Source: Cupriavidus pauculus (GTDB taxonomy: Bacteria; Pseudomonadota; Gammaproteobacteria; Burkholderiales; Burkholderiaceae). Taken from it: 64,000 nt of DNA. This document shows, piece by piece, positions 10,895 to 19,966 of this stretch. The notes under the pieces are model-generated. The model saw nothing but the letters and a program-made list of their open reading frames with translations. It was not told the DNA's origin and searched no databases. Every line of letters starts with the position of its first letter. The first letter of the stretch is position 1. The translations under genes were made by a program, and so were the position numbers. Location: positions 434,001 to 498,000 of the forward strand of contig NZ_CP044067.1 in assembly GCF_008693385.1 (NCBI RefSeq), in the 5' to 3' direction.

Positions 10895-11536
10895 TCAGCC
10901 GGAGCGCGATCGCTCCGTCTCCCGGTGCGACGCGCACAACCCCATCCTGTCCGCGATGCGCACCAGCGCCGGCAACGAGTCGACTTCGAGCTTCTGCATG
11001 ACGTGCGCGCGATGGACCTTGATGGTCTTCTCCACTGTGCCCAGCTCGCTGGCGACCTGCTTGTTGCGGATGCCCGTCACGACCCACGTCAGCACCTCGC
11101 GCTCGCGGGGCGTAAGGCGCTGGATCTTCTGGCGCAGCGACTGCAACTCGCGCTGCAGCGCAAAGTGCTCGGCCGCACATGCGCAGCCCTTCTCCACGGC
11201 CGCCAGCAGATCGGTGTCCGACACGGGCTTCTCCAGAAACTCGATGGCGCCGGCCTGCATGGCCTGGACCGCGCGGGTCACATCGCCGTGGCCACTCAGG
11301 AAGATGACGGGTACCCTGCCCTGAAGGCCCTGCTGGAGCATCAGGCCATCCATGTCGGGCATCAGCAGGTCCAGCAATACGCAGGCCGGGCCGGCATCGA
11401 GATCGGCTTCATCGAGAAAGGCCTCCGCCGAAGGGAACATCGCCACGGCGTAGCCATGCGCGGTCAGTACGCGCCCCAACGCACGCCGCACGCTGTCGTC
11501 GTCATCCACGATATGAACTGTAGCCCTCGCATGCAT
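10895..11536 (-). CDS. FixJ/LuxR-type DNA-binding response regulator
   Basis: 213 residues. The ATG at 11536 has an excellent GGAGGTGA five bases upstream; an earlier in-frame start would overlap the kinase gene. The receiver has the acidic residues near 11-14, phospho-acceptor Asp56 (VLLDLLMPDMDG) and Lys in EFLEKPVSD. The C-terminal LuxR-type helix-turn-helix runs from LTPREREVLTWV to KTIKVHRAHVMQKLEV. It follows the sensor kinase by four bases and is presumably its partner. It is the best candidate for the protein that binds the four WTGGWCC sites in the surrounding 16 kb. Confidence 0.93.
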   Translation of the reverse strand: MHARATVHIVDDDDSVRRALGRVLTAHGYAVAMFPSAEAFLDEADLDAGPACVLLDLLMPDMDGLMLQQGLQGRVPVIFLSGHGDVTRAVQAMQAGAIEFLEKPVSDTDLLAAVEKGCACAAEHFALQRELQSLRQKIQRLTPREREVLTWVVTGIRNKQVASELGTVEKTIKVHRAHVMQKLEVDSLPALVRIADRMGLCASHRETERSRSG

Positions 11537-11540
11537 ACTG

Positions 11541-12419
11541 TCACCTCCAGCGAAACACCGCGGCGCCGGTCGAACCCTGGCGAAGCGCCTCCGCTTCCCG
11601 CGGCAGGACACATTCGAACGTCATGCCGCCACCGCTGTTGCGAATAGCCTCGATATGGCCGCCGTTGCGCTCCATGAGCGCGCGGCTGAGCGACAGGCCG
11701 AGACCCATGCCCTTAGGCTTCGAGGAATAGAAAGGTCGAAAGATCTTTTCGAGGTCGTCGGCCGCGACGCCGGCGCCATTGTCCTGCACGGCAATACGGA
11801 GCGCGCGATCCGCCGCGCGCACCCGGACCGTGATGAAGCGGTCGTGGCTCGACCGCCCCGATGCCACGGCATCCAGCGCGTTGACCAGCAGGTTCAGCAG
11901 CACGAGGCGGATCTCCACCGGATCGCCCACCGCGCGCGGGAGCCCGTCCTCGATATCTCGCTTGACGACCACGCTGCGCGCGCTCGCATTGGCCCGCGCC
12001 AGGTCCAACGCCTGATCGACCACGTCCGCAACGCTGAATGGCACCATGCGCGGCGCTTCTCCCAGTATCAGCGCGCGCACGCCACGTACGATGTCGCTCG
12101 CGCGCGAGGCATCATCGACCATGTCGTCGACGATCTCCTTCAGCATTTCCTTGTTAAATGTGCTGGAAGCGAGAAACTCGCGCGCGGCATGCGCGTTGCT
12201 CGTGATTGCCGTCAGCGGCTGGTTGAGTTCGTGCGCGAGGGAGCCGGCAAGCTCCGCGATGCCGGATTGCGGCAAGGCGTGCGCCAGCGGGCCCCTCAGC
12301 GTCAGCCGCATGGGCTCCCGCGCGCCGCGAGGCGCGGTGCGCAGCCGTTGCATTGCGACCGCACAGCCGACACCCATGGCCGCCGCGATGCAGAGCACCC
12401 ACGCCAGTGACCGTCGCAT
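11541..12419 (-). CDS. short membrane-anchored sensor histidine kinase without a periplasmic domain
   Basis: 292 residues. One N-terminal membrane segment (residues 4-22) is followed by about 30 linker residues, then HisKA with the phospho-acceptor His63 (SLAHELNQPLTA), the N box (LVLLNLLVNALDA), the G1 box (VQDNGAGV) and the G2 box (MGLGLSLSRALM). There is no PAS, HAMP or extracellular sensing domain, so the signal must be sensed in the membrane or supplied by a partner. The gene lies 13 bases after the SYLF lipoprotein gene and four bases before the regulator gene, so lipoprotein, kinase and regulator form one operon. Confidence 0.9.
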   Translation of the reverse strand: MRRSLAWVLCIAAAMGVGCAVAMQRLRTAPRGAREPMRLTLRGPLAHALPQSGIAELAGSLAHELNQPLTAITSNAHAAREFLASSTFNKEMLKEIVDDMVDDASRASDIVRGVRALILGEAPRMVPFSVADVVDQALDLARANASARSVVVKRDIEDGLPRAVGDPVEIRLVLLNLLVNALDAVASGRSSHDRFITVRVRAADRALRIAVQDNGAGVAADDLEKIFRPFYSSKPKGMGLGLSLSRALMERNGGHIEAIRNSGGGMTFECVLPREAEALRQGSTGAAVFRWR

Positions 12420-12432
12420 GGCCGAGTCCGGG

Positions 12433-13002
12433 TCAGATGTCCAGCTTCCCGATCTTGGTACCCTCTAGCGACAGGTTTGCCATCAGACCGGCGTTGGTGA
12501 GGACGAAGGCGATGATGGGCGCCTTTGCCGTATTCGTATCGAGTTGCCCGTTGGCGCCGATACCGATGACGGCGACCGAGCCGTCCACGCCGGCCGTCCA
12601 CCCCTTGCTTTGCTGGAAGCTACGCAGGGAGTCTTCCGTCATGAACATCATGATGAGCGCCTTGGACTGCGCACCTGCAAGGAAGCCGAAGGAGGCCGTG
12701 GTCGTACGGTAGTACGCGGTGGTCGCATTGGCGACCCGCAAGGCGCCCTCGCCGTACTCGGCGCCGACGACGAAGCCGCCGGCAAGGATGCGCGGGAATA
12801 CGAGTACGCCCCGGGCGTCGTTCGCCAGCGATCTGGATGCGGCCGCGGTGTTGAAGAGCCTGGTCAGCGTGCCATCCACCGCCGCGTCGATCTCCCGGCG
12901 CTTCGCGGTCGCGTCACTCGGCGTGGCCGGCGTGCCAGTGCATGCCGTCAGCGTGGGGCCGAGTGCCAGGGAAGAAGAGAGCAAGAACAGCCGTCGATCC
13001 AT
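12433..13002 (-). CDS. SYLF-domain (YSC84-like) lipid-binding lipoprotein
   Basis: 189 residues from ATG 13002, which has GGGAGG five bases upstream. The signal peptide ends in a lipobox (PTLTAC, Cys about 21). The remainder is the SYLF/YSC84 domain: LFNTAAASRSLANDARGVLVFPRILAGGFVVGAEYGEGAL and later FGFLAGAQSKALIMMFMTEDSLRSF. SYLF domains bind phosphoinositides in eukaryotes; bacterial members are envelope proteins of unclear role. As first gene of the operon with the kinase and regulator it may modulate signal sensing; this is inference. Confidence 0.88.
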   Translation of the reverse strand: MDRRLFLLSSSLALGPTLTACTGTPATPSDATAKRREIDAAVDGTLTRLFNTAAASRSLANDARGVLVFPRILAGGFVVGAEYGEGALRVANATTAYYRTTTASFGFLAGAQSKALIMMFMTEDSLRSFQQSKGWTAGVDGSVAVIGIGANGQLDTNTAKAPIIAFVLTNAGLMANLSLEGTKIGKLDI

Positions 13003-13326
13003 GATGCCTCCCGTGTGCAGTGATACTGCCTTTTTCGACAATAGCGGGGCTCATCCGCACGGGGGCGTCGACGACATCGGTACGGCACTACCCCTGAATG
13101 GCGACCAAGCCTACCTTCGTCTGTTTTCAATTGTTCTGATGTTTGTGACATACAAACTAGGTCGACCATTTAATCATTGCAATCTTTACTTTTTCTGACG
13201 CGCATTGCATTTCACGACGCTCATAAAAATTGCAATGCGCGCGATTCAGTACTTATTTTTTGTATTGAATCATTTAAACCGAGGCTTAAAAATAATCCTC
13301 AATCATTTTTTCGTAATCCTGAAAGA
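13003..13326 (-). other. AT-rich intergenic region between the DUF2950 and SYLF genes
   Basis: 324 bases with no convincing gene. The left part must hold the promoter of the SYLF-kinase-regulator operon. The part from about 13125 to 13325 is much richer in A+T than the surroundings. It contains a perfect 10-bp inverted repeat, GCGCATTGCA near 13201 and TGCAATGCGC near 13230, separated by about 20 bases. No typical intrinsic terminator for the DUF2950 gene was found on the minus strand, and no copy of the WTGGWCC motif was seen. Confidence 0.6.
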
Positions 13327-15045
13327 CTATGGCCGGGGGGCCGATGCCTGGGCGGATACCTCGCTCCATCGGCTATCGGGATCGAACGAATCGATCGCCG
13401 CGGCGCGTGCAGCCGTCTCTGGCCCCAGATCGCGCTCGTAGACCGTGCCGGCATGGCTGATCATGAAACTCTTGATGCCGGTTTCCCCATAACGCGCGGG
13501 CCACGCGAGGACGGCAAAGCCGCCGAAGAGCTGGCCATTGACGAGGTATGTGTACGCGCCGCCGGGCGCGGCCGACCCTTGCGAGGTCAACAGTTTGTAG
13601 CGGTAGCCGTGATAGCCGTCGTTACCCTTGTTTTGCGTCACGGCGTCGATAAAGGCGGGGCCGAGGGGGCTTTCCGCCTCGCCGGGGCGCGTCGGCCAGT
13701 AAAGGCCGTCCATCTTTCCGGGCGAGCTTACGAGCTTGCGCGCGTACACCGACATCCCGTTGGTGCCGTGGTTGGCATCGGCATACTCGCGCTGGGCGTC
13801 GCCGATCGCGAGCATCGTCTGTATCGTGTTCAGCTCGTTGCGGCCGATTCGCCTGAGGCGCATTTCCTCGAGGCCTGCACGGGTGTCGAAGTGCCATTTG
13901 CCGTGGGATTGCACGAGGGGGATCGGGAGGGTCCAGCCGTCATTGCCCACGGATATGCGTGCGCGGCCGGTGTTGTCCCTGACGATGCCATGCGCCTGGT
14001 TCCATGCGGCAAGAAATCGATATCGTAAATCCGCGCCTAGCGGTGGAATAACGTCGCGAGATATCGGACCTAGCAGACTCTGCACGGCAGAATCGTCGCT
14101 GGTAGCGATCGCATCGCCGAACGCGGTCATCGCGGATTCGGGTGTGTCGAAATTGCGTTGCGCATGGGCCGGTGAAACCGCCATGCATAGCATCGCGAAT
14201 GCGAACCATGCGCAGGCAGCCCACCGCGTCGCGATGGGCTTGAGCGCGGTCAGTGCTGTCACCGGATGTTTTGGATGGTCCATGTCCGCGAACCATGCGC
14301 GGGCGGCCCACCGCGTCGCGGTGGTCTTGAGCGCGGTCATTGCTGTCATCGGGTCTGTTGGATGGTCCATGGTGGCGAGCCATGCACGGGCAGCCCGCCG
14401 CGTCGCAATGGTCTTGAGCGCGGTCATTGCTGTCACCGGATGTCTTGGATGGTCCATGGCGAGCCATGCACGGGCGGCCCGCCGTGTGGCGATAGCCTTG
14501 AGCGCGGTCATTGCTGTCACCGGATGTTTTGGATGGTCCATGGTGAGCCATGCGCGGGCGGTCCGCCGCGTGGCGATAGCCTTGAGCGCGGTCATTGCTG
14601 TCACCGGATGTTTCAGATGGTCCATGGCGAGCCATGCGCGGGCGGCCCACCGCGTCGCGATAGCCTTGAGCGCGGTCATTGCTGTCACCGGATGTTTTGG
14701 ATGGTCCATGGTGAGCCATGCGCGGGCGGCCCGCCGCGTCGCGATGGGCTTGAGCGCGGTCATTGCTGTCACCGGATGATTTGGATGGTCCATGGTGAGC
14801 CATGCGCGGGCGGCCCGCCGCGTCGCGATGGGCTTGAGCGCGGTCATTGCTGTCGTCGGGTGTTTGGGATGGTCCATGGCGAGCCATGCGCAGGCAGCCC
14901 GCCGCGTCGCGATGGGCTTGAGCGCGGTCATTGGTGTTGTCGGATGATTTGGATGGTCCATGGCGAGCCATGCTCGGGCGGTCCGCCGCGTGGCGATGGG
15001 CTTGGGCGCGGTCATTGGTGTTGTCGGGTGATTTGGATGGTCCAT
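13327..15045 (-). CDS. DUF2950 family exported protein with an N-terminal tandem-repeat extension
   Basis: The C-terminal 270 residues are a complete DUF2950 domain (from FDTPESAMTAFGDAI to DSFDPDSRWSEV), preceded by a signal-peptide-like stretch (AWFAFAMLCMAVSPAHAQ). Upstream, the frame stays open through ten copies of a 28-29-residue unit beginning MDHP. Starting at the outermost ATG (15045, 20 bases after the DUF3300 stop) gives 572 residues; starting at the innermost ATG (14283) gives 318, the normal size and a usable signal peptide. No strong Shine-Dalgarno precedes any of these ATGs, although GGTGA lies shortly before an internal ATG in several copies. The domain call is firm; the start is open. 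Confidence 0.8.
   Translation of the reverse strand: MDHPNHPTTPMTAPKPIATRRTARAWLAMDHPNHPTTPMTALKPIATRRAACAWLAMDHPKHPTTAMTALKPIATRRAARAWLTMDHPNHPVTAMTALKPIATRRAARAWLTMDHPKHPVTAMTALKAIATRWAARAWLAMDHLKHPVTAMTALKAIATRRTARAWLTMDHPKHPVTAMTALKAIATRRAARAWLAMDHPRHPVTAMTALKTIATRRAARAWLATMDHPTDPMTAMTALKTTATRWAARAWFADMDHPKHPVTALTALKPIATRWAACAWFAFAMLCMAVSPAHAQRNFDTPESAMTAFGDAIATSDDSAVQSLLGPISRDVIPPLGADLRYRFLAAWNQAHGIVRDNTGRARISVGNDGWTLPIPLVQSHGKWHFDTRAGLEEMRLRRIGRNELNTIQTMLAIGDAQREYADANHGTNGMSVYARKLVSSPGKMDGLYWPTRPGEAESPLGPAFIDAVTQNKGNDGYHGYRYKLLTSQGSAAPGGAYTYLVNGQLFGGFAVLAWPARYGETGIKSFMISHAGTVYERDLGPETAARAAAIDSFDPDSRWSEVSAQASAPRP
14200..15045 (-). repeat. ten tandem copies of an 84-87 bp in-frame repeat
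   Basis: ATG codons opening each copy lie at 15045, 14961, 14877, 14793, 14709, 14625, 14541, 14457, 14370 and 14283, so seven intervals are 84 bp and two are 87 bp. All lengths are multiples of three and no stop interrupts the frame. The encoded unit is MDHPKHPVTAMTALKAIATR plus RAARAWLA, with substitutions between copies. The last copy continues directly into the signal peptide of the DUF2950 protein, so the array looks like repeated duplication of that gene's first 28 codons. Confidence 0.95.
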
Positions 15046-15064
15046 GGTGGTCGGGGGCTTGCGG

Positions 15065-16642
15065 TCAACGGCGACCGCCTCTTCCGCCACCGCCTCCGCC
15101 GCGGCCGCCTGCAAAGCCGCCGCCACCGCCACCGCGGCCGCCGGAGAAATTGCCGCCTCCGCCTCCGCCTCCGCCCGCGAAGCCGCCGCCTCCTCCGCCG
15201 CCGGCGCGCTGCGAGGCGTGCGCGCTGCCGCCCGCGTTGCGCGTCGACGCCGTCGAGCTCGCCCTGCCGCGATCGAAATCTCGTTGCGCCGCATTGCCGC
15301 CGCCGACACCCTGAAACGCGTTGTTGCCGCGGTCGGCCTGACGATTGCCGGCGCGATCCGCACCGGCTGCCGTGCCGTCCCGTGCGTTGCGGCCATCGCG
15401 TGCGTCGCGACTAGCCTGGTCATCACGGCCACTCCGTGCGTCGCGACTGCCCTGGCCATCACGGCCACTCCGTGCGTCGCGACTGTCCTGGCCATCACGG
15501 CCACTGCGTGCGTCGCGACTGTCCTGGCCATCACGGCCATTCCGTGCGTCGCGACTGTCCTGGCCATCACGGCCACTCCGTGCGTCGCGACTGTCGCGGC
15601 CGTCACGAGCGGCGTCACGGCTGTCGCGGCCATCACGCGCGGCGTCGCGACTGTCACGTCCGTCACGTCCGTCCCGCCCCCGAAACTCGCTCCTCCTGTC
15701 CGCCCCGCTGGCATTGCCGCCAAACTTCTCCCGCGTGGCCCCGTCGCGATACGCGACCCCCTTCCTGTGACTCGCATCATGCTTCCATCGATTGCCCCCC
15801 TCGACCTTGGTCCTGTCGAAGTTACGATCGATATTGGTCGCGCGATTCACGTCGATATTCACGTCGCCGCCACCCCAGTTGCAGTCCGAAAATATGGCCC
15901 CGGCCGCCGCAAGCCCGACGCCCCAGGCAAAGCCCGTCATCAGCGCGCCGCCAGGGTAATAGGCGGGATATGGCGGCCAGTAGTACGGCGGATACGCGGG
16001 CGCGCTCCATCCCCCGTAGACGACCGTCGGGTTGTACGCGGGCACATAGATGACCTGCGGATTCGTCGGTTCGACCTTGATGATGGTCTGCGTCGCCGCG
16101 GCTTGCGTGCCACTGGCGGGCGGCGCGCTCTCGACGGTCACCTTCTGCTGCTCGTTCGACTTGAGGTTGCCGGCATCCTTCGCCTTCGCGCGCAGGCGCT
16201 GCACAGCCGCCAGTACATCCTTCTCTTGCGCGAGGAACGCGTCGCCGAGCTTCTGCGTCCAGTCCAGCTTGTCGTTCATCGGCTCCAGGACCTGCGGAAA
16301 CGCGACCAGCGACTTGACGCTGACGTCCCACGGCTGATCCTGCACCGCCTTCACGGCGGCATCGCCCTTCACGTTGGGATTGGCCTTGAGCCAGCGGGCC
16401 GCCTGCACCACCTCGAGCGGATAGGTCGATGCCATCAGCGCCTGCGACAGAACGGAGTCCGGGTACAGGGCAATCGGCGCGACCAGCGCCTCCAGCTCCT
16501 CGGGCTTGAACGGGCGCGACGTGGTGTCGGCGCCCTGCGCATGCACGGTGCCGATGGCGGCGAGAAAACAGCCCAGCAGCCACTTCCCGAGCCACCGCAC
16601 CACGCACGATGACCGAGTCGGCCGCGCGATGTGGAGCGTCAT
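15065..16642 (-). CDS. DUF3300 family exported protein with Arg/Asp repeats and Gly-rich tail
   Basis: 525 residues. A signal peptide ends near residue 36 (LGCFLAAIGTVHAQ). The DUF3300 domain spans about 45-260 (FKPEELEALVAPIALYPDSVLSQALMA, and the Tyr/Pro-rich VVYGGWSAPAYPPYYWPPYPAYYPGG section followed by a Gly/Ala hydrophobic stretch). The region about 320-425 is built from RDGRDSRDA-type repeats, and the last 60 residues are almost only Gly with Phe, Ala and Arg. The start at 16642 has GGAGG 11 bases upstream. It lies just before the DUF2950 gene in one operon, a pairing typical of these families. The function of DUF3300 is not established. Confidence 0.9.
   Translation of the reverse strand: MTLHIARPTRSSCVVRWLGKWLLGCFLAAIGTVHAQGADTTSRPFKPEELEALVAPIALYPDSVLSQALMASTYPLEVVQAARWLKANPNVKGDAAVKAVQDQPWDVSVKSLVAFPQVLEPMNDKLDWTQKLGDAFLAQEKDVLAAVQRLRAKAKDAGNLKSNEQQKVTVESAPPASGTQAAATQTIIKVEPTNPQVIYVPAYNPTVVYGGWSAPAYPPYYWPPYPAYYPGGALMTGFAWGVGLAAAGAIFSDCNWGGGDVNIDVNRATNIDRNFDRTKVEGGNRWKHDASHRKGVAYRDGATREKFGGNASGADRRSEFRGRDGRDGRDSRDAARDGRDSRDAARDGRDSRDARSGRDGQDSRDARNGRDGQDSRDARSGRDGQDSRDARSGRDGQGSRDARSGRDDQASRDARDGRNARDGTAAGADRAGNRQADRGNNAFQGVGGGNAAQRDFDRGRASSTASTRNAGGSAHASQRAGGGGGGGFAGGGGGGGGNFSGGRGGGGGGFAGGRGGGGGGRGGRR
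15375..15676 (-). repeat. 30-bp and 36-bp in-frame repeats encoding RDGRDSRDA units
   Basis: Within the DUF3300 gene: three RDGRDSRDAA-type units of about 30 bp, then five 36-bp units encoding RSGRDGQDSRDA with single substitutions, then degenerate ends. The resulting segment alternates Arg and Asp, is highly charged and probably disordered. The high identity of the 36-bp units at the DNA level suggests recent expansion. Confidence 0.9.
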
Positions 16643-16695
16643 GGCGCCCGTTCCTCCGGAATATTGTTGAAGTTACATATAGGTGGCCCGCGCGC

Positions 16696-16721
16696 ATTGG
16701 ACAATGGAACCTTGGTCCAAT
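16696..16721 (-). promoter_or_regulatory. putative operator of the DUF3300-DUF2950 operon (site C of four)
   Basis: A 26-bp imperfect palindrome: plus-strand arm ATTGGACAATGG and minus-strand arm ATTGGACCAAGG around an AA centre. Read towards DUF3300 it starts TTGGACCAAGGTTCC and this core ends about 64 bases before the ATG at 16642. A TATATG element near 16676 could be the -10. It also lies about 100 bases before the divergent cupin gene. Confidence 0.6.
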
Positions 16722-16818
16722 GCGGCAACGTCGCGCGTTTGTCTGCTTCCGCACAGAGGCATGGACGGCATGCCACTAACCTGACTCGCCAACGATTCCT
16801 GCCTTGGGGGCAACGCCG

Positions 16819-17334
16819 ATGCGCGACAAGCCACGCCGAATCACGCGTGATGAAGGAGTGTTCAACCGGCCGGAGGCGATGCCCATGCATCCGTGCCCCA
16901 TCGAACCGGGTTGGATCCACAGCGGGACACCCGTGACCCGCAGCGGCGACCACTCGAGCGCGCGCGACAACTTCGCGTGGACCTCCGTATGGGACTGCAC
17001 GCGCGGCACGTTCGAGTGGCACTTCGACATGGACGAAACCGTCTATATCCTCGAAGGCCAGGTCAGGGTCACCGACGCCAACGGCGACACCCATCTGCTG
17101 ACCGCGGGGTCGATCGGCTATTTCCCCGCACACTCCACGTGGCGATGGGAAGTCGATCGCTACGTCCGCAAGATCGCGTTCCTGCGCCGGGAAGTCCCGC
17201 TCGGCCTGCGCCTGGCGACGCGCGTCCTGTCCAGACTCAACCTCGACGCGCGCCTGCGCGCGCCCCGGGATCCCGACGCCCCACGCATGCGCCGTTCGAC
17301 GGCGGCACTGGTGCTGATGTCGCTTGCGCTGTAA
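16819..17334 (+). CDS. cupin domain protein (cupin_3 type)
   Basis: 171 residues from ATG 16819, with GGGGG nine bases upstream. The single cupin domain runs from about residue 45 to 115; the motif region reads TRGTFEWHFDMDETVYILEGQ and later LLTAGSIGYFPAHSTWRWEV, as in the DUF861/ureidoglycine-aminohydrolase-like cupins. His, Asp and Glu residues could bind a metal. The C-terminus adds a basic stretch and a short hydrophobic tail (TAALVLMSLAL), perhaps a membrane anchor. It is divergent from DUF3300 across the operator at 16696-16721. Enzymatic activity cannot be assigned. Confidence 0.8.
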   Translation: MRDKPRRITRDEGVFNRPEAMPMHPCPIEPGWIHSGTPVTRSGDHSSARDNFAWTSVWDCTRGTFEWHFDMDETVYILEGQVRVTDANGDTHLLTAGSIGYFPAHSTWRWEVDRYVRKIAFLRREVPLGLRLATRVLSRLNLDARLRAPRDPDAPRMRRSTAALVLMSLAL

Positions 17335-19015: not shown

Positions 19016-19063
19016 GGGCAGAGAGCGGGCAGAGAACGGGCAGAGAATGGGCAGAAAATGGGC
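19016..19063 (+). repeat. 11-bp tandem repeat directly before the LysR start
   Basis: Four consecutive units GGGCAGAGAGC, GGGCAGAGAAC, GGGCAGAGAAT and GGGCAGAAAAT, then a partial GGGCATG that includes the likely start codon. It occupies the ribosome-binding region of the LysR gene, in the intergenic region shared with the divergent SDR pair. Just upstream (about 18994-19011) is the palindrome CATGCC-TCGCA-GGCATG, a possible regulator site. Confidence 0.85.
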
Positions 19064-19966
19064 ATGGAACTCAGACACCTCCGGTACTTCATCGCCGTGG
19101 CGGAAGCCGGCAGCCTCACGGACGCCGCCGCGAACCGGCTTCATACCTCCCAGCCGTCGCTGAGCCGGCAGATCCGCGACCTCGAGGAACGCGTGGGCGT
19201 GGCGCTTCTGACGCGCGGTGCGCACGGCGTGGCGTTGACGGATGCGGGCCGCGCCTTCCTCGACCATGCGCGCCTGGCCATGGCGCAGGTAGACGCCGGC
19301 GTGGAAGCCGCCCGCCGCGCGGCGCAGCCGTTGAAGCCGCGCTTCGCGCTGGGGTTTCTCACCGGCCAGGAGATCACCTGGCTGACGGACGCCATGCGCC
19401 TGCTGCGCGCGGAGTTGCCGAATATCGAGGTCAGCGTGTCGAGCGACTACTCAACGGAACTGGCCGCGGCAGTGGCGCACGGCAAGCTCGATGTCGCCTT
19501 TATGCGCGCCGAGCCCGGATACGGCCTCGAGTACCGCGTGGTGGCGCAGGAGCCCCTCGTGGTCCTGATGCCCAGCGATCACCCTCTGACCTCGCGCGAC
19601 ACGGTCAGCGCCGAGGACTTGCGTCATGCGCCGTTTATCGCCATGGGCGAGAAGGCCCGGGTGCTGCGGCAGGTCGTCGATGGCTATCTCGCGAGTGCGG
19701 GCATCGAGGTAGACATTGCGCAAAGCGTCGACAACCCGGCCATGGTGATGTCGCTGATCGCCTCGACGCGCGGCATGACGCTGATCCCCGCATATGTCGA
19801 GAACCTGATGCCGTGGTCCGTGGTCAGCCGCCCGCTCGCGGGCCAGGCGCCGACAATCGATCTCGCCGTCGGCTATCGCCCCGACAATACGGCGCCGACG
19901 CTTCAGCTGTTTCTGTCGCGCATCGAGGCACTGCGGTCGAGCATCGACGGCCCCACCGTCCGCTAA
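19064..19966 (+). CDS. LysR family transcriptional regulator
   Basis: 300 residues from ATG 19064; an in-frame ATG two codons earlier (19058) is also possible. MELRHLRYFIAVAEAGSLTDAAANRLHTSQPSLSRQIRDLEERVG is a canonical LysR winged helix-turn-helix, followed by an effector-binding domain. Divergent from the SDR pair, which it probably controls. No standard Shine-Dalgarno is present; the upstream bases are the 11-bp repeats, so initiation may be weak or depend on repeat number. Confidence 0.92.
   Translation: MELRHLRYFIAVAEAGSLTDAAANRLHTSQPSLSRQIRDLEERVGVALLTRGAHGVALTDAGRAFLDHARLAMAQVDAGVEAARRAAQPLKPRFALGFLTGQEITWLTDAMRLLRAELPNIEVSVSSDYSTELAAAVAHGKLDVAFMRAEPGYGLEYRVVAQEPLVVLMPSDHPLTSRDTVSAEDLRHAPFIAMGEKARVLRQVVDGYLASAGIEVDIAQSVDNPAMVMSLIASTRGMTLIPAYVENLMPWSVVSRPLAGQAPTIDLAVGYRPDNTAPTLQLFLSRIEALRSSIDGPTVR

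Follow-up and report, generated by a model that had tools for sequence, protein, structure and literature searches.

What has been multiplied in front of a DUF2950 gene, and does it matter to the exported protein that follows? The question is raised by an array of ten in-frame units of 84 or 87 bp on the minus strand (14200-15045) of the 64,000-nucleotide stretch of DNA analysed here (the window), which lies between a DUF3300 gene and the mature part of the DUF2950 gene. The features are listed below.

14200-15045, minus strand: tandem array of ten units, 87 bp long in units 8 and 9 and 84 bp in the others, from repeat finding and unit listing
14794-15045, minus strand: units 1-3, codon-11 ATG without a Shine-Dalgarno (dG -0.6 to -1.3), from 16S-tail pairing
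14371-14793, minus strand: units 4-8, each a full start module with GGTGA-N5-ATG at codon 11 (dG -7.4), from pairing and alignment
14284-14370, minus strand: unit 9, codon-11 ATG, Shine-Dalgarno weakened to GATGA (dG -1.6), from pairing
14200-14283, minus strand: unit 10, gene-proximal, continuing into the hydrophobic core of the signal peptide, from unit listing
14251-14263, minus strand: ancestral start site of unit 10 as read from pairing and alignment, with GGTGA at 14259-14263 and CTG at 14251-14253 (ATG in C. pampae)
14161-14283, minus strand: signal-peptide region from the unit-10 ATG, 41 codons ending in PAHA, cleavage site placed by eye
13327-14283, minus strand: DUF2950 gene from the unit-10 ATG, 318 aa, PF11453 (E 3.3e-110), from Pfam
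15046-15064, minus strand: spacer of 19 nt from the DUF3300 stop to unit 1 (stop codon not counted)
15065-16642, minus strand: DUF3300 gene, the upstream partner, 525 aa, PF11737 (E 1.5e-93), from Pfam

The array and its operon

An earlier note on this DNA had proposed ten in-frame 84-87 bp units free of stop codons, which is borne out by the unit spacings (84 bp seven times and 87 bp twice, with zero stops in frame) and by Tandem Repeats Finder (84 bp x 10.0 copies, 90% matches, score 1241, the highest in the window). Each unit is headed by ATGGACCAT, invariant in all ten, at minus-strand positions 15045, 14961, 14877, 14793, 14709, 14625, 14541, 14457, 14370, and 14283. The same note gave all units an MDHP head, which is found in nine of them while unit 6 reads MDHL, and called them polar, an inexact word for units that are basic, and helical in a low-confidence model.

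The gene behind the array matches the DUF2950 profile (PF11453) well above the curated cut-off (368 bits vs 20.2, E 3.3e-110), and the DUF3300 gene lies directly upstream on the same strand, forming an operon whose gene order recurs in a second operon of the same genome. Sigma-70-like promoter sites were not found in 13000-17000 (0 vs 0.8 expected). Coding minisatellites are common, and the stop-free tandem units of 84 or 87 bp, which keep the frame, would fit that class. Genome-wide dispersal of the MIRU type is absent, the unit having a single match in its own genome (7.06 Mb in three contigs), namely the array itself. Plasmid records searched with the array gave zero matches, and a protein search with the array peptide alone returned only P0001, the product of a same-species allele described below. 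Frames other than the array frame are also open across the array, and the open frame alone is therefore little proof.

Other tandem repeats occur in the window, at 15390-15607 (36 bp x 6.1) and 15084-15201 (33 bp x 3.6) in the 3' half of the DUF3300 gene, and at 19016-19064, where the start of a frame resembling a LysR-type regulator (19058-19966) has an 11-bp unit x 4.5, its length not a multiple of three.

The content of the repeated unit

In none of the ten units does the ATG of the MDHP head, which the earlier note took as the start of the gene, pair more than weakly with the 16S tail (dG -0.3 to -3.8). Codon 11 of each unit offers a further possible start (ATG in nine units, CTG in unit 10), and a Shine-Dalgarno is found only before these codon-11 starts, in units 4-8 and 10. 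GGTGA stands at a suitable distance from codon 11 in units 4-8 (dG -7.4), from which products of 478 to 366 aa would be made if these starts were used; in unit 10, GGTGA is kept and codon 11 is CTG. The start region of C. pampae, where an in-frame stop lies a few codons upstream of the start, aligns with unit 10 without gaps (62.7% of 83 nt, a value reached by 0 of 2000 shuffles), and in this alignment the CTG of unit 10 stands opposite the C. pampae ATG, and the two GGTGA motifs coincide.

Given the weak pairing at the MDHP ATG against -7.4 at codon 11, and the alignment of the C. pampae start with codon 11, the earlier assignment of the start is not supported. By these comparisons the ancestral start is codon 11 of the unit, turned into CTG in the gene-proximal unit. 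The C. pampae alignment, together with the codon-11 Shine-Dalgarno, makes the duplicated piece best read as the gene's start module, consisting of a Shine-Dalgarno, a start codon, and 18 codons of the signal-peptide n-region. The broader proposal of the earlier note, that the start and n-region of a DUF2950 gene have been amplified and now offer many in-frame starts, is thus supported. Of the start sites, the one closest to the gene is less well preserved than others, an odd state of affairs if this site alone were used; its sole use is possible but strained, because the innermost ancestral start here is CTG. CTG can, however, act as a weak start codon. Counting against strong initiation in units 4-8, predicted folding buries their Shine-Dalgarno, which is mostly paired (mean unpaired 0.01-0.19).

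The second operon, relatives, and same-species alleles

The genome contains two DUF2950 genes, the second outside the window (locus L099, G000:C3 about 1107992-1110972) and also preceded by a DUF3300 gene, with a junction (DUF3300 stop to DUF2950 mature part) of 728 nt. This junction holds an array of mainly 9-bp units (L099:8829-9385, G000:C3 about 1108828-1109384), open in the DUF2950 frame and unrelated to the 84-bp unit; the two arrays have no common sequence or charge pattern. The strongest Shine-Dalgarno of the paralogue (dG -17.0) belongs to a start just after the DUF3300 stop and 242 codons ahead of the mature part. The orthologues looked at have this start in the same position, and its frame continues across the array as far as the signal peptide. 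A second good Shine-Dalgarno (dG -13.4) precedes an inner ATG, which is 23 codons away from the mature part. The simplest reading is that the second array would be translated through from the first start. At L099:9484-9495, as in the orthologues, the last DUF3300 codons and stop (CGGAGGTGA) are at the same time the Shine-Dalgarno of DUF2950, an overlap that may explain the conserved RR end of DUF3300 in the second operon type.

The junction of the first operon is 904 nt long, vs 74-185 nt in 103 measured junctions of other genomes, in which the longest tandem stretch is 35 bp. Both junctions of this genome are thus expanded (904 and 728 nt), and none of the 103 others is. These numbers come from a genus search of 60 genomes including the present one, 50 of which have a DUF2950 match, and from further loci, which together gave 131 distinct DUF2950 genes (2 own, 129 others). 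Twenty-six of the 129 were left out for an unusable junction: 24 without a recognisable DUF3300-type end (22 without DUF3300 upstream; L024 and L125 with one), L027 (777, without DUF3300 upstream), and L126 (1212, DUF3300 apparently truncated). The longest near-gene tandem stretch among these 26 is 51 bp (L048), glycine-rich and DUF3300-end-like. The survey also left out about 15 short fragment matches, and a few further loci gave no row.

As a background, 780 kb of the genome sampled regardless of these genes contain one array of at least 400 bp, so that two expanded junctions out of two are unlikely to be a matter of chance, in a comparison made after the first array had been seen. That background array (L097:13305-13778 on G000:C3, outside the window) repeats a 12-bp unit 39.5 times inside a long open frame resembling a membrane protein (TRAD repeats), and its place in an open frame suggests that this genome may be prone to coding arrays generally. 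For both gene kinds, the two longest other-genome junctions are those of the nearest relatives, G060 and G005 (C. pampae), at 185 and 173 nt among 66 A-like junctions (L053, L003) and 165 and 143 nt among 37 B-like junctions (L154, L120). Lengthening of the n-region may therefore be older than the arrays and have begun before this species.

Two further alleles, P0121 and P0001, come from contigs of 1791 and 4531 bases, respectively, and by their mature parts we assign both to the same species. The mature part of P0121 equals that of the second paralogue in 255 of 255 residues and its first residues are nearly the same, while only 64 residues, vs 242, precede the mature part and the array is absent. 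It is predicted from the first start of the paralogue, and the array has not simply collapsed in it, since residues of another kind occupy the array's place. P0001 agrees with the array gene in 276 of 277 mature residues; its last two units are unlike the last two here, and it retains M where the codon here is CTG.

The mature parts differ from those of the two nearest relatives with dN/dS of 0.08 and 0.12 (array gene) and 0.08 and 0.14 (paralogue), dS being near saturation in part (0.66-1.60). With ratios of about 0.1, the mature proteins appear to be under purifying selection. Among the units, pN/pS is lowest of the six frames in the array frame (0.54), and the synonymous excess in that frame is not significant (of 28 changes, 11 synonymous vs 7.8 expected, P 0.13). 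Selection on the repeat peptide was considered and dropped, since this event test was not significant and a comparison of two parts of the unit revealed no difference. A model of the long form predicts, with low confidence, roughly one helix for each unit and is mostly confident in the DUF2950 domain; compared with the PDB it gave zero matches at E 0.001 or better, and a search by sequence found no solved structure (best E 0.15). The single-sequence model of the 318-residue form is unusably poor (mean pLDDT 38.8).

Explanations and implications

We consider it probable that the arrays are recent, strain-variable, in-frame expansions of the stretch ahead of the signal peptide, in the array gene of its start module, that they are probably translated from upstream starts, and that they are tolerated while the mature domain is under selection. 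The minisatellite would have arisen as the DUF2950 start module, made up of some 30 nt of leader including the Shine-Dalgarno, the start codon, and 18 n-region codons, was duplicated in tandem and in frame again and again. Since the unit length is divisible by three and the unit has no stop, a ribosome starting in an upstream unit would continue into the signal peptide, and the product would gain basic segments of 28-29 residues each before the hydrophobic core. Translation would most likely begin in an upstream unit, the nearest complete module being unit 8 (366 aa), or alternatively, and weakly, at the unit-10 MDHP ATG; the CTG of the innermost module suggests that upstream starts are needed. 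In the paralogous operon a change of this kind, with a different repeat, would have taken place behind that operon's own start. The anatomy, the ancestral start, the lack of such arrays in the relatives surveyed, the differing alleles within the species, and the conserved mature part are direct results, and from these we infer translated arrays, used upstream starts, and extensions that most likely have no dedicated function and are tolerated beside a mature domain kept under selection. The inner starts may also be used in both genes, given that CTG is a weak start and that the inner ATG of the paralogue has a dG of -13.4.

Use of the inner starts alone is rather unlikely. Initiation would then take place only innermost (CTG 14253 or ATG 14283, and the inner ATG of the paralogue), the arrays would be non-coding spacers, and their open frame a consequence of unit length. 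Such an untranslated leader would fit the other open frames over both arrays, the lack of significant selection on the repeat peptide, and the good Shine-Dalgarno of the paralogue's inner ATG; moreover, 240-300 residues ahead of a signal peptide are expected to hinder export. Against this, the innermost ancestral start of the array gene is CTG, the strongest start of the paralogue (dG -17.0) precedes its array, at a place kept in the orthologues looked at, and the array-less P0121 is predicted from that same pre-array start.

It is also unlikely that a single common cause led both DUF2950 genes to grow, independently, more than 200 residues ahead of their signal peptides. The cause could be selection, for instance for a pre-signal segment that is long or adjustable or for more than one site of ribosome entry, and the in-frame repeat number would then act as a dial by which a strain sets how the DUF3300-DUF2950 system is exported or expressed. 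Quite unlikely, in our judgement, is the related reading that ribosome loading, the length of the N-terminus, or the export of DUF2950 is tuned by how many start modules there are, with selection acting on the repeat number. The expansion of both paralogues vs 0 of 103 measured others, the two longest other junctions of both paralogues in the two nearest relatives, and the allele differences within the species all speak for this. However, three of the ten units lack a Shine-Dalgarno, a fourth carries a weakened one, and a fifth no longer has its ATG, which amounts to decay rather than upkeep; the two arrays are alike in neither sequence nor charge pattern; in-frame repeats are unable to switch a frame on or off; and the genome has another long array, the 12-bp one, inside another open frame. 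Tuning by copy number is thus possible but unsupported.

Operator titration, in which ATGGACCAT in each unit binds the regulator of the operon, an idea already raised in the earlier note, is highly improbable: ATGGACCAT is invariant in the ten units and has seven bases (TGGACCA) in common with TTGGACCAA upstream of DUF3300, here and in near relatives, but the conserved element is at least 20 bp long, its best match to a two-unit stretch has 10 mismatches, no better than shuffled elements, and no regulator is known for it. The element upstream of DUF3300 is TTGGACCAAGGTTCCATTGTCCAA (16697-16720); C. pampae, G056, G018, and C. pauculus have ATTGGACCAAGGTTCCATTG or a near form upstream of their DUF3300 genes, and among the more distant loci inspected it was not seen. 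A FixJ-like response regulator is encoded nearby (10895-11611). Tandem arrays mis-assemble easily, but an assembly artefact is hardly credible, since the units differ pairwise at 4-15 of 81 positions, which makes the array neither a fresh copy nor an obvious assembly error, and the genome consists of three contigs with 99.94% completeness.

Repeats in comparable positions have been described. The MIRUs in the senX3-regX3 junction of Mycobacterium tuberculosis are tandem units of 77 and 53 bp, which resemble the present case in lying in a two-gene operon junction and varying in make-up between strains (PMC4213456). Unlike the MIRUs, through which the second gene is reported to be expressed separately, the unit here is the gene's own start module, in frame, and a promoter-like site was not found in 13000-17000. 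PARCELs are in-frame units of about 25 residues and variable number, belonging with coding minisatellites or intragenic tandem repeats (PMC2996958); they are palindromic, dispersed, and thought to be horizontally spread, whereas the unit here occurs at one place in the genome, before a signal peptide. In Trypanosoma cruzi GP82, in-frame methionines lie upstream of the signal peptide and the farthest start still gave surface protein, while moving the signal to an internal region abolished its recognition (PMC6513831). GP82 is eukaryotic and without an amplified array, and shares with the array gene several in-frame pre-signal starts. In root-nodule bacteria, DUF3300 and DUF2950 are reported to be co-localised, to carry signal peptides, to be induced in two transcriptome studies, and to be of unknown function (PMC4653623). 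The present operon has the gene order and exported DUF2950 of other proteobacterial DUF3300-DUF2950 operons, and differs in its expanded junction (0 of 103 elsewhere). Of the literature searched, one paper (PMC4653623) names DUF2950, and the titles and abstract openings listed describe no such array.

What sets this case apart is that each repeat would carry the ribosome site, the start codon, and the signal-peptide n-region of the gene itself, and that in one genome both paralogous operons have had the same junction expanded, by repeats unrelated to each other, against none of 103 measured junctions elsewhere. The front ends of these proteins seem to change fast, and the array-less allele of the second gene in the same species provides a natural control. 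The case could directly test what distance from the N-terminus is allowed to a bacterial signal peptide, by what rule ribosomes pick one of several repeated in-frame starts, and whether the number of repeats tunes an exported protein whose function is unknown.
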